Positions 34,133 to 37,294 of a stretch of DNA of 37,294 bases are shown here, in pieces; positions within the stretch are counted from its first letter, which is position 1; the number at the start of each line of letters is the position of its first letter. A model generated the notes under the pieces. The model made no database searches, had not been told where the DNA came from, and saw nothing but the letters and a program-made list of their open reading frames with translations. A program made the position numbers and the translations under genes. Source of the DNA: Desulfobacteraceae bacterium 4572_123 (GTDB lineage Bacteria; Desulfobacterota; Desulfobacteria; Desulfobacterales; 4572-123); assembly GCA_002084545.1 (NCBI GenBank), contig NBLJ01000039.1, forward strand, positions 1-37,294, read 5' to 3'.

Positions 34133-34234
34133 TAATTTTTACATTGATTTAATTTTTTGGTTCGCCATTAATCATGCTTAATTTTTTGTACTTGAATATT
34201 TATTTAGGTATATTTATCGATTGTGTATCAAGGT

Positions 34235-34789
34235 ATGCAGCAGCCAAAAAAGAAAAAATCCAAAAGACTGTTTCTTGATGTAAGACACACCCGGGCTTGG
34301 TCTGAAGATCTTTCTTTTGTAATGCAACTGGGGCTTACAATGGCCGGGTGCATTTTTTTTTGTTTTTTTATAGGTAAAACCCTGGATAGCTTTCTGGGAA
34401 CCAGGGGAATATTTTTAACAATTTTTATTTTTTTAGGGATCATCGGAGGCGCCAACGTTGTCTACCGCCAGATCATGGAAATGGTAACGCCGGAGCAAAA
34501 CAAAATGGTCTTCGGCGCTCTGTTCAGTATTCTAAATTTTATTTTAATGGGTGAAACCCTCCCTGTGCGAATTAACAAAACCCGAAACATGACTTTGATT
34601 CTGGCTTTGGGGTCCATTTTTTTCAGATATGGTTTGATGGCGATTCCACTTATTCTGGCAATCAAACTGGATCAGTTCAACCTTTTTGCGACAATCGCCG
34701 GACTTTTCATGGTTCAGGCGGTTATACTCGGTGATCATTTAAAACACTTTCTTATTCCGGTTCGAAAAAAACAACCCCAAGGTGATTAA
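34235..34789 (+). CDS. AtpZ-AtpI fusion, ATP synthase assembly/ion-transport protein
   Basis: 184 residues from ATG 34235; an in-frame GTG at 34223 adds four. The first part (WSEDLSFVMQLGLTMAGCIF to YRQIMEMV) is the AtpZ domain: two membrane helices joined by FFIGKTLDSFLGTRG. The second part has three further helices (VFGALFSILNFILMGE; LILALGSIFFRYGLMAIPLIL; FNLFATIAGLFMVQAVILG) like the last three spans of AtpI. Many relatives encode atpZ and atpI as two separate genes. The protein probably helps c-ring assembly and may move Mg2+ or Ca2+. It lies nine bases before atpB. Confidence 0.75.
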   Translation: MQQPKKKKSKRLFLDVRHTRAWSEDLSFVMQLGLTMAGCIFFCFFIGKTLDSFLGTRGIFLTIFIFLGIIGGANVVYRQIMEMVTPEQNKMVFGALFSILNFILMGETLPVRINKTRNMTLILALGSIFFRYGLMAIPLILAIKLDQFNLFATIAGLFMVQAVILGDHLKHFLIPVRKKQPQGD

Positions 34790-34797
34790 CGTCAATT

Positions 34798-35472
34798 ATG
34801 GAAGAATTAGGTAAAATCCATCAACTCATAGTTCCGTTTTTCGGGCATAATATGGTATTTAACCTGGAAGCCATTTTCATGACCTGGATTGTTATAGCCA
34901 TCTTGATTGTCTTTGGCATGATCACAACCAGGGGGAAAAGCATGTTTCCCGGATCATTCCAGGTGATCGGTGAATTATTTGTAGCTCAGCTTTATGATTT
35001 AACTGAAGATGCTTTAAACCGCGAAATGGCCAAAATCTATGCGCCGCTGATATTTGCACTGTTTCTGTTTCTGGTTCTTAGCAACTGGATCGGTATGGTT
35101 CCTCACCTGGAGGAACCCACCAAAGATCTTAACACGCCTTTAAGCCTTGGCCTGATGGGCTTTGCCATTGCCCATTATGCCGGCATCAAAAGCAAGGGCT
35201 TCAAGGCGTATGCCAAAGAGTATTTTGAACCGATGTTTTTTATGATGCCGCTGAATTTAATTGGAGAACTGGCAAAGATAGTATCCATCTCCTTTCGCCT
35301 GTTCGGCAACATCATGGGCGGTTCGATTATCATTCTTGTGGTATCCCATCTGACATGGAGTATTTTGGTTCCTCCTTTTCTAAATGCTTTTTTCGGTTTG
35401 TTTGTGGGCGCAATTCAGGCTTTTGTTTTTACCATGCTTACAGTGGTATATATTTCGGTTCAGGTAAAATAA
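34798..35472 (+). CDS. atpB: F-type ATP synthase subunit a
   Basis: 224 residues with about five membrane spans. The essential stator arginine is R167 in SISFRLFGNIMGG, the classic subunit a motif. The N-terminal NMVFNLEAIFMTWIVIAILI and the loop VPHLEEPTKDLNTPLSLGL are normal for bacterial a subunits. It forms the two ion half-channels facing the c-ring. Its end is three bases from the start of the fused c gene, so expression is coupled. Na+ or H+ specificity is not decided by this subunit alone. Confidence 0.93.
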   Translation: MEELGKIHQLIVPFFGHNMVFNLEAIFMTWIVIAILIVFGMITTRGKSMFPGSFQVIGELFVAQLYDLTEDALNREMAKIYAPLIFALFLFLVLSNWIGMVPHLEEPTKDLNTPLSLGLMGFAIAHYAGIKSKGFKAYAKEYFEPMFFMMPLNLIGELAKIVSISFRLFGNIMGGSIIILVVSHLTWSILVPPFLNAFFGLFVGAIQAFVFTMLTVVYISVQVK

Positions 35473-35475
35473 CTT

Positions 35476-36450
35476 ATGACAATAGATATTGAAACCTGGG
35501 TAAAGGTAGCTGCTTTTACAGGCAGCGGTTTGGCCATGGGGCTAGGTGCCATTGGTGCGGCAATTGGTGAAGGGTATACAGCCGCATATGCAAATTCCGC
35601 TATTTCACGCAGCCCCAATCTTTCCGGTGAAATTTTTAAATCAATGCTGGTGGGTCAGGCCATTGCCGAATCCGCCTCAATATTTGCGCTTGTCATTGCA
35701 ATGCTTTTATTATTTTCAGATTTCAGCTCGCAAAGCTGCCTGATGATAATGGTCCCTATATCAGCGGGACTGGCCATGGGATTTGGTGCAATTGGATCGG
35801 GAGTCGGTTCAGGTTTTCCCGCCGGTGCTGCATGCATGGGAATAGCAAGGCAACCGGCCATGAGTGCAAAGCTGACTACCAATATGTTGATTGGCTCCGC
35901 AGTTTGCCAAACACCGGCAATATTTGCTCTGGTTACATCTTTTATTTTATTATTTACTAATTTTTCTTCATCTCCTGTATCGCCGACCTGGGCAGCTATA
36001 CTTGGTGCCGGTTTGGCATCAGGCTTGGGAGCAATTGGATCCGGGCTTGGTGGGGGATTTGTTGCAGGGGCCAGTTGTGAAGGGATTGCACGGCAACCCA
36101 ACTCTGCAACTACCGTTACCAATGTTATGCTCCTTGGGCAGGCAGTAACACAAACAACGGCAATATATGGCCTTCTGATCAGTTTTATCCTTATGTTTAA
36201 AACTTTTGCACCGACTGATTCCATCGCGGCGGCAGTGGCATTACTTGGAGCTGGACTCTCGATCGGGATTGGTGCAATTGGCCCAGGCATTGGCGAAGGA
36301 TTGGCTGCACAAAGCGCAGTGGGAGCTATCGCGAAAAATCAGAAGGCAACCCCTGACATAACAAGGGTAATGCTTGTCGGTCAGGCGGTTTCCGAATCCA
36401 CTGGAATCTACTCTTTAGTTATATCTTTAGTTTTGATTTTTGTTATTTAA
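35476..36450 (+). CDS. Four-hairpin fused c subunit of F-type ATP synthase
   Basis: 324 residues made of four tandem c-subunit hairpins, about eight membrane spans, roughly residues 7-82, 88-163, 171-245 and 250-324. Hairpin 1 has E32 (GEG) and E65 (AES). Hairpin 4 has E274 (GEG) and E307 (SES), with Y312. Hairpin 2 has S112 and Q145 (CQT) instead. Hairpin 3 has G193 and Q226 (TQT). Thus two of four hairpins lack both ion-binding carboxylates. Normal c subunits are about 80 residues with one hairpin. The gene sits between atpB and a normal c gene, so the proteins could co-assemble into one rotor ring. No internal frameshift or stop is present. Confidence 0.9.
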   Translation: MTIDIETWVKVAAFTGSGLAMGLGAIGAAIGEGYTAAYANSAISRSPNLSGEIFKSMLVGQAIAESASIFALVIAMLLLFSDFSSQSCLMIMVPISAGLAMGFGAIGSGVGSGFPAGAACMGIARQPAMSAKLTTNMLIGSAVCQTPAIFALVTSFILLFTNFSSSPVSPTWAAILGAGLASGLGAIGSGLGGGFVAGASCEGIARQPNSATTVTNVMLLGQAVTQTTAIYGLLISFILMFKTFAPTDSIAAAVALLGAGLSIGIGAIGPGIGEGLAAQSAVGAIAKNQKATPDITRVMLVGQAVSESTGIYSLVISLVLIFVI

Positions 36451-36490
36451 TTTTAAAATTTCTAACTCGTTAAGCAAGGAGAATAAAAAA

Positions 36491-36739
36491 ATGGCAATTG
36501 AAGGTGCGGATATTATCAAGGCTGCGGCATTTTTAGGGGCGGGATTGTCCATGGGACTTGGCGCAATAGGACCCGGTGTCGGAGAGGGCATGGCAGCAGC
36601 AAAGGCGTGTGAAGCCATAGGCAAAAACCCTAGAGAAGCCGGCCTTCTTACACGAACAATGCTCGTAGGGCAGGCGGTATCCGAGTCCACCGGAATTTAT
36701 TCGCTGGTAATTGCGCTATTGCTTTTGTTTGTAGTTTGA
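36491..36739 (+). CDS. atpE: ATP synthase subunit c, single hairpin, Na+-type signature
   Basis: 82 residues, normal length. Start ATG 36491 has AAGGAG nine bases upstream; an upstream TTG at 36440 overlaps the previous gene and adds an unlikely tail. Residues E32, V63, E65, S66, T67 and Y70 are present. In the Ilyobacter tartaricus c-ring Na+ is held by Q32, V63, E65, S66 and a water on T67, with Y70 nearby; E at 32 together with E65 is the two-carboxylate variant known from Fusobacterium. Na+ coupling is therefore likely. It lies 40 bases after the fused c gene and is most similar to hairpin 4 of it (VGQAVSESTGIYSLVI). Confidence 0.93.
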   Translation: MAIEGADIIKAAAFLGAGLSMGLGAIGPGVGEGMAAAKACEAIGKNPREAGLLTRTMLVGQAVSESTGIYSLVIALLLLFVV

Positions 36740-36924: not shown

Positions 36925-37146
36925 ATGCAGATTATCAGCAATATTGCATTGATCAGTATTAACGAAACCCTATTTATTCAGTTGATCTCTTTTCTTATTT
37001 TTCTTTTCATTATCAACCGAATAATGTTTCGCCCGCTGAGACGAATCATTATCGAAAGAGAAAATCATATAGAGAAGATAAATCTGGATATCATTGATGC
37101 CGAAAAATTTATGGAGAAGGTAATAGAGCGGAGGATGGTTCTATGA
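36925..37146 (+). CDS. Short ATP synthase b'-type subunit
   Basis: 73 residues. The membrane helix (ETLFIQLISFLIFLFIINRI) and the following MFRPLRRIIIERENHIEKI match the start of b/b' subunits (typically 140-160 residues). The protein then ends at RRMVL, so most of the stator coiled coil is absent. The stop TGA overlaps the next gene's ATG (37143-37146), so the short end is the real gene end in this assembly. It may be a truncated b' or need the next gene's product for its coiled coil. Confidence 0.7.
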   Translation: MQIISNIALISINETLFIQLISFLIFLFIINRIMFRPLRRIIIERENHIEKINLDIIDAEKFMEKVIERRMVL

Positions 37147-37294
37147 ACAATAAAAATTTAAAGGTATACAGCCCATATCTATTGCCTGCGGTTTTGTTCT
37201 CCGTGCTTATCTCCTGTGGTAATGCCTATGCGTCCGAGACAGCGGCCGCAGGCTGGCGGCCGACATATGATCTCGTCATGATGTGGATCAATTT
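37143..37294 (+). CDS. atpF: ATP synthase subunit b (N-terminal part, runs off the window)
   Basis: The first 50 residues are visible: a basic N-terminus (MNNKNLKVYSPYLL), a hydrophobic PAVLFSVLISC resembling a signal peptide, a short linker GNAYASETAAAGWRPTYDLV, then the start of a membrane helix (MMWINF). Desulfobacterota b subunits of this kind carry an N-terminal signal-like segment. It overlaps the b' gene by four bases. The gene is cut by the window end. Alternative: another Fo-linked membrane protein. Confidence 0.6.
   Translation, partial: MNNKNLKVYSPYLLPAVLFSVLISCGNAYASETAAAGWRPTYDLVMMWIN

Follow-up and report, generated by a model that had tools for sequence, protein, structure and literature searches.

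The number of ion sites in a rotor ring sets the energy price of ATP. The Na+ F-type rings characterized by 2013 all had 11 hairpins, as reported in PMC3692424, and the Na+ site of Ilyobacter is described as lying between two subunits, one of which provides Glu65 and Gln32 while the other contributes Ser66 and the Val63 backbone and stabilizes the Glu through its Tyr70 (PMC2359735). Acetobacterium woodii builds a ring in which fused and single c subunits are reported to be mixed at c2/3:c1 = 9:1 (PMC8904574), described as holding 10 Na+ sites and as working at 3.3 Na+ per ATP (PMC7793690).

The principle of a fused c with a neutralized site is already known from this two-copy case. Brandt and Muller 2015 reportedly gave twelve species with one FO-type and one VO-type c gene per operon, and may already name some Desulfobacterota. 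An F-type c with three to six hairpins and graded live sites was not found in the literature searched, which did not reach Matthies 2014 or Brandt and Muller 2015. Two to four atpE copies are described for Desulfatiglandales in a 2026 paper, in which their ion was not resolvable (PMC13343851).

Results

A four-hairpin c subunit in an F-type FO locus

The window analyzed here is the whole 37,294-nucleotide stretch of contig NBLJ01000039.1 from Desulfobacteraceae bacterium 4572_123, a draft genome of 168 contigs that is 88% complete and 7.5% contaminated. The contig ends at position 37294, within an operon that contains the following features; hairpins that keep their site carboxylates are called live, and those that have lost them dead.

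34223..34789 (+): AtpI/AtpR-like protein, 188 aa (PF09527, E 3.6e-13; weak PF03899), at the same position in relatives
34798..35472 (+): F-type subunit a, 224 aa, with the stator Arg in SISFRLFGN (PF00119, E 3e-50)
35476..36450 (+): fused four-hairpin c, 324 aa, one open frame starting 3 nt past the stop of a (four PF00137 stretches)
35497..35724 (+): hairpin 1, live (E32, E65, S66, A67, F70)
35746..35964 (+): hairpin 2, dead (S112, Q145, T146, P147, F150)
35986..36207 (+): hairpin 3, dead (G193, Q226), with T227, T228 and Y231 as putative donors for hairpin 4
36229..36444 (+): hairpin 4, live (E274, E307, S308, T309, Y312)
36476..36481 (+): AAGGAG, ribosome-binding site of the single c (-8.5 kcal/mol, vs -4.7 upstream of the fused c)
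36491..36739 (+): single c, 82 aa, with a two-carboxylate Na+-type site by alignment (E32, E65, S66, T67, Y70; PF00137, E 6e-19)
36925..37146 (+): b' subunit, 73 aa, most of the stalk helix absent (PF00430, E 3.7e-5)
37144..37294 (+): start of subunit b, cut by the contig end (read from the sequence and from the b', b order in relatives)

The fused c scores 203 bits against PF00137 (ATP-synt_C; cut-off 24), in four stretches with E 6e-61. A sequence-only reading of the window had described four hairpins in 324 aa, with E32/E65 and E274/E307 kept and S112/Q145 and G193/Q226 lost, and counting on the translation returned exactly these residues; the window protein thus has fewer ion sites than hairpins, two live of four, as that reading had stated. 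The F-type setting that it proposed is borne out by the gene order a, c4, c, b', b and by the PF00119 and PF00430 neighbors, with the window b' itself scoring below the PF00430 cut-off, and the stator-Arg motif is present in 114/114 related a subunits. A PF00430 pair also occurs at loci L046 and L055, where no F1 genes were seen among the genes examined 3' of b. Delta and alpha share an operon with the fused c in G214 and at loci of several other families (L127, L132, L133, L135, L136, L137, L142, L147 and L148).

The window b' measures 81 aa from stop to stop and is the shortest among 121 frames, redundant loci included (next 142, median 159). It retains the start and the final residues, and the middle of the stalk helix is absent. 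The short b' reflects a genuine in-frame loss or else a collapsed stretch close to the end of the contig; given this truncation, the window FO copy may be non-functional, or the contig end may be misassembled.

A phylum-wide family with two to six hairpins

Matches to the window protein at E <= 1e-40 were found in 105/194 genomes drawn from the order (contig-end fragments counted) and, by the same search, in 69/122 good-quality genomes of the order. A draw across the phylum yielded 34/297 genomes at E <= 1e-26, six of which, the window genome included, belong to the same order. Among the 31 aligned relatives, identity ranges from 48 to 90%. Of 116 confirmed loci, 80 were kept, and loci L041-L102 come from Desulfobacterales and other Deltaproteobacteria. 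Split homologues in all relatives would have counted against the sequence-only reading, yet relatives carry the gene unbroken. Among them are Desulfosarcina widdelii, whose closed genome encodes a fused c of four hairpins with one live, and Desulfonema magnum, also closed, with three hairpins of which two are live; both belong to the set of loci just named.

For the hairpin survey, c-like frames of the fetched loci were taken, each hairpin was aligned to one profile, and the site residues were read in Ilyobacter tartaricus numbering (32/65). Collapse at 97% identity, with one contig-cut protein dropped, left 116 non-redundant fused proteins comprising 471 hairpins; a set of 114 omits L149 and L165, which end at a contig end. 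Among these 114, the window pattern +oo+ (live, +; dead, o) is the commonest (43), followed by +ooo (33), +ooooo (8), +o++ (7), +oooo (6), +ooo+, +o+ and +oo (4 each), +o (3), and +o+o and ++ (1 each), and the four-hairpin share is probably inflated because the query was itself a four-hairpin protein. Hairpin 1 is live in 114/114. Two-hairpin forms account for 4/114 members, three of them with one site. The four-hairpin, two-site design, which had first been taken for a singleton, is instead one state of a phylum-wide family with two to six hairpins and one to three live sites.

Two genomes hold a second fused-c copy, namely G150 (C1:2940342-2941313, where the adjoining subunit a match is a 27-residue piece only) and G036 (C16 and C29). 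At L150 (4165-4931) the usual order is inverted: the single c comes first and is followed by a two-hairpin c whose two sites are both live.

In a tree of a subunits, a branch with support of 100 separates the fused-c FO from conventional a. Hairpin number and live-site number need 20 changes each on the best tree, which came from a quick search with 42/117 inner branches open and one genome present twice, and fewer changes are needed if weak forks are ignored.

Dead hairpins are under purifying selection

Across the 471 hairpins of the 116 proteins, both carboxylate positions are kept in 182 and both are lost in 288, while a single hairpin is mixed (inner lost, outer kept), with Gln or Asp at position 32 scored as kept. 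Within the 114-protein set, residue 65 of the dead hairpins (n = 285) is Gln in 284 and Ser in one, with S/T66 in 285/285; the live hairpins (n = 181) have E65 and S/T66 in 181/181 and E or Q at 32 in 179/181. Live hairpins of the fused c are therefore consistent in sequence with the Na+-specific c signature (Gln/Glu32, Glu65, Ser/Thr66). The neighboring single c reads PE.QVESTY in 76/79 and PQ.QVESTY in 3/79. Q145 is invariant among 32 aligned four-hairpin proteins.

For hairpins 1-4, dN/dS was 0.090, 0.103, 0.076 and 0.091, as obtained from 17 pairs with pooled pS 0.1-0.55 (about 0.45) among 83 usable proteins. The dead hairpins are under purifying selection, and pseudogene decay is ruled out by these ratios together with the conserved Gln. 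The earlier suggestion that the paired loss of carboxylates reflects selection rather than decay thus held, with dN/dS of 0.08-0.10 in every hairpin, live or dead.

AlphaFold2 modeled the window protein with pLDDT 93.9 and pTM 0.89 (32 alignment rows) and a six-hairpin relative with pLDDT 91.4 and pTM 0.89 (8 alignment rows). According to DSSP, the outer helix is broken at the Gln in 7/7 dead hairpins of the two models, and such a break occurs in 0/3 live hairpins. We read the neutral Gln as a mimic of a loaded Glu.

Tyr70 across hairpin borders

Since the Ilyobacter site is shared between two subunits, it gives a testable prediction about Tyr70 for fused chains. Each ion site would combine the carboxylates of one hairpin with residues 63/66/70 of the preceding hairpin, and for this reason it would also govern which dead hairpins retain Tyr70. 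Among 355 inner borders in the 116 proteins, which are related, so that the counts are not independent, the hairpin preceding a live one has Tyr70 in 54/67 and the hairpin preceding a dead one is without Tyr70 in 286/288. In all 13 exceptions before live hairpins, residue 61 of the live hairpin itself is Met or Leu. Tyr70 is absent from hairpin 1 in 113/113 proteins whose hairpin 2 is dead and present there in the single protein whose hairpin 2 is live, and the last hairpin, live or dead, carries S66-T67-Y70 in 114/114. The window fused c fits the pattern at every border.

This Tyr70 neighbor pattern is what would be expected if the fused c subunits belong to working rings. The reverse direction, in which hairpin i+1 completes hairpin i, showed the opposite tendency, with Tyr70 in i+1 for 19/124 live and 151/231 dead hairpins. 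A tree-controlled version of the test yielded 3 independent pairs with good support (12 when all branches are used), too few for significance, averaging 1.7 in the expected direction and 0.0 in the opposite one.

Gene order and translation signals

A live single c lies 3' of the fused c at 79/83 loci. The fused-c start lies <=20 nt from the stop of a at 109/112 loci, with a median of 3 nt, when taken as the ATG nearest that stop, a rule that favors short gaps, and with loci lacking a recognized ATG or subunit a dropped. The ribosome-binding site of the single c is the stronger one at 104/106 loci (mean -10.5 vs -4.1 kcal/mol; exceptions L137 and L141), and an earlier count under another start rule had given 78/78. 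The weak fused-c site and the start close behind a together suggest that each a, and with it each enzyme, receives about one fused c along with many single c. As a control, seven Bacillota loci with a two-hairpin fused c showed no consistent contrast between ribosome-binding sites; a weak site is therefore not a general mark of hybrid rotors, and the dosage argument is specific to the Desulfobacterota family.

Counts of F1 and FO genes

With curated cut-offs, alpha was sought in 16 genomes and a in 15 of these (G168 left out). One more a than alpha was present in 11/13 finished or near-finished genomes (G480, G479, G010, G465, G214, G150, G171, G069, G116, G167 and G065), in which, on gene content, the fused-c FO appears to be additional, with no further F1 to go with it. 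In G054 and G185, no alpha exceeded the cut-off. Of two drafts, G481 fits the same relation and the window genome has two of each; its two different F1 operons (L212 on C157, L213 on C136) possibly come from contamination. In G480, G479, G010, G465, G214, G069 and G116, one FO is conventional and one has the fused c, and in G214 the sole F1 adjoins the fused-c FO. That one F1 is shared by two FO is put forward as a hypothesis, because its basis is gene counts.

The conventional single c in these genomes (L214, L215, L219, L221, L223, L225 and L227) carries Gln32, Glu65, Ser66 and Tyr70, but Leu67. This c might take Na+ or H+, so that what distinguishes the two FO may be gear and not ion.

Relation to Acetobacterium woodii c1 and to other bacterial c subunits

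The likeness in design to A. woodii c1, which the sequence-only reading had pointed out, was confirmed at two levels: 4bem_J, the A. woodii c1 chain, is the top PDB match of the window protein by sequence (E 1.3e-25) and of the window model by Foldseek (E 3.4e-7, TM 0.80 on the target, rmsd 7.8). V-ATPase c/K subunits are also among the Foldseek matches. Chain 4bem_J has E65 and F70 in hairpin 1 and Q65 and Y70 in hairpin 2. In a hairpin tree built by quick search from 75 columns and a sample of 28 proteins, the hairpins of A. woodii c1 cluster with A. woodii c2 (SH-aLRT 92-93), most dead middle hairpins form one group (support 97), and hairpin 1 and the single c need one change each (supports 72 and 69). 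The fused c of this family and A. woodii c1 are probably of independent origin; simple descent from A. woodii c1 is not supported by this 75-column tree.

Among 398 drawn Bacillota genomes, 17 match at E <= 1e-17; 11 of these hold 12 two-hairpin fused c, and the other six gave single-c-sized matches, the one fetched being a single c. No fused c with more than two hairpins was seen among the 398. Hairpin 1 of the Bacillota two-hairpin c is live, with F70 in 11 and L70 in 1, and hairpin 2 is dead at position 65 only (Gln, with Gln32 kept) and has Y70 in 11/12. At L240-L243, a and a two-hairpin fused c occur with no single c and no F1 genes recognized nearby, and at L249 (3185-4670) two different two-hairpin fused c genes stand in tandem, followed by a single c.

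In Omnitrophota, at 3/12 loci (L104 7983-9399, L105 896-2214, L111 1008-2312), two separate single c genes flank a; the first has Thr or Ile at 32 and Ser at 65 instead of the carboxylates, and the second is live. A mixed ring could also arise in this way, with the dead c encoded as a gene of its own.

Discussion

The fused c is, in our judgment, probably a subunit in the rotor of a Na+-type F-ATP synthase with a mixed ring, in which one long fused c would be joined by several single c from the next gene. In the window form, live hairpins 1 and 4 would carry ions, and hairpins 2 and 3, where Gln replaces the ion-carrying Glu and a small residue replaces the second carboxylate, would act as positions that are always neutral, as if 'already loaded', and move past the stator with no ion exchange. 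Fewer ions would then be needed per ATP. If the ring is assumed to have 11 hairpins and to include a single fused copy, the window form would move 9 ions per turn (3.0 per ATP), and for the six-hairpin form the same assumption gives 6 sites and 2.0 ions per ATP. The computed voltage for ATP synthesis at 40 kJ/mol is ~138 mV for the window form and ~207 mV for the six-hairpin form. We infer that the fused c sits in the ring, in one copy, with 11 hairpins, the Na+ ion and this ion ratio, and the composition and copy number of the ring and the ion and direction of the enzyme are to be read in the same way.

ATP-driven pumping, to which the sequence-only reading had pointed, becomes more plausible the more dead hairpins a chain has. 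The window form is compatible with synthesis and could work either way, and the longest forms look more like ATP-driven pumps because of the ~207 mV that synthesis would need. The longest siteless run spans five hairpins; if the ring has 11 hairpins, the live sites on either side would lie ~196 degrees apart. Desulfobacteraceae are described as having a constitutive Rnf2 (PMC11887813), with which a Na+ cycle fits.

Could the fused c instead lie outside the ring, as an assembly factor, a regulator or a relic, with single c only in the working ring? The weak translation signal of the fused c and the truncated b' of the window would agree with such a role, but dN/dS of 0.08-0.10 in live and dead hairpins alike, the conservation of Q65 and S/T66, and the Tyr70 neighbor pattern all speak against it, as does the fact that A. 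woodii c1 is a chain of a solved c ring (4bem_J), and we consider it unlikely. Less probable again is a ring of fused c alone, for example three four-hairpin chains making 12 hairpins and 6 sites, with the single c serving another complex or condition. The donor set STY in the last hairpin (114/114) could complete the site of either a single c or hairpin 1 in another fused chain and is to that extent compatible with such a ring; yet a live single c follows at 79/83 loci, its ribosome-binding site is the stronger at 104/106, lengths of two to six hairpins do not suit one ring size, and A. woodii is reported to mix both kinds of c (PMC8904574). An assembly artefact or chimeric tandem repeat, which the 168 contigs and 7.5% contamination of the draft might bring to mind, can practically be dismissed: homologous fused genes are present in closed genomes, identity runs from 48 to 90% across the 31 aligned relatives, and hairpins cluster by position. 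The collapsed or chimeric repeat against which the sequence-only reading had advised checking is refuted for the family, and chance or artefact is likewise ruled out at that level by the closed-genome homologues and the 105/194 order genomes.

A further proposal adds to the mixed ring more than it competes with it, namely that the fused-c FO is an ATP-driven Na+ pump sharing the single F1 with the conventional FO, so that the cell would have two gears. The surplus of one a over alpha in 11/13 finished or near-finished genomes argues for sharing, and low ions per ATP favor pumping. On the other side, sharing is deduced from gene counts, G054 and G185 have no alpha above the cut-off, the window draft genome has two F1 sets, the sole F1 of G214 adjoins its fused-c FO, and the fused c of other families stands in an F1 operon. 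We take this proposal seriously while leaning slightly against it. Returning to the mixed ring, we advance only tentatively, and with rather more doubt than belief, a natural gear series in which fused c of two to six hairpins, with as many as five siteless hairpins in a row, would lower the ions per ATP step by step (10, 9, 8, 7, 6 per turn of an 11-hairpin ring), and in which, in many Desulfobacterales, conventional and fused-c FO on one shared F1 would synthesize ATP in one gear and pump Na+ in the other.

Many sulfate reducers encode a two-to-six-copy fused c with neutral sites, possibly a natural way to change motor gearing. With about 20 changes each in hairpin number and live-site number, the family is a ready comparative series for the price of ATP, and its five-hairpin siteless runs bear on how much empty rotation can be bridged by elastic coupling to F1. 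If it is true that one F1 serves two FO, the counting and interpretation of ATP synthase genes in sulfate reducers would change.

Several described rotors share parts of this design. Multi-hairpin fusion is reported for the archaeal c of Methanocaldococcus (three hairpins) and Methanopyrus (13 hairpins), but these are V/A-type, and 13/13 Methanopyrus hairpins are described as keeping the full Na+ ligand set (PMC2359735). The V-ATPase c/K subunits, with two hairpins and one site, likewise combine duplication with the loss of one site (PMC2359735); they belong to V-type enzymes and, unlike the window, come without an F-type a and a separate single c gene. The Na+ c ring of Fusobacterium nucleatum (PDB 3zk1) has the same Glu32/Glu65/Ser66/Thr67/Tyr70 as the window single c (PMC3692424), whereas each of its chains is one hairpin and all 11 sites are live, unlike the fused c.

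The closest likeness is to the F/V-hybrid rotor of A. woodii (PDB 4bem), in which c1 also has a live hairpin 1 with F70 and a later dead hairpin with Q65 and Y70. The fused c is likewise encoded between a and the single c, as seen in the Bacillota relatives and as in A. woodii itself. The dead hairpin of the Bacillota two-hairpin c keeps Gln32 (12/12), whereas the Desulfobacterota lose both positions. A. woodii c1 and the window thus have in common a fused c, fewer live sites than hairpins and an adjoining single c gene, but c1 has two hairpins with one site, and the window fused c has four hairpins with two.
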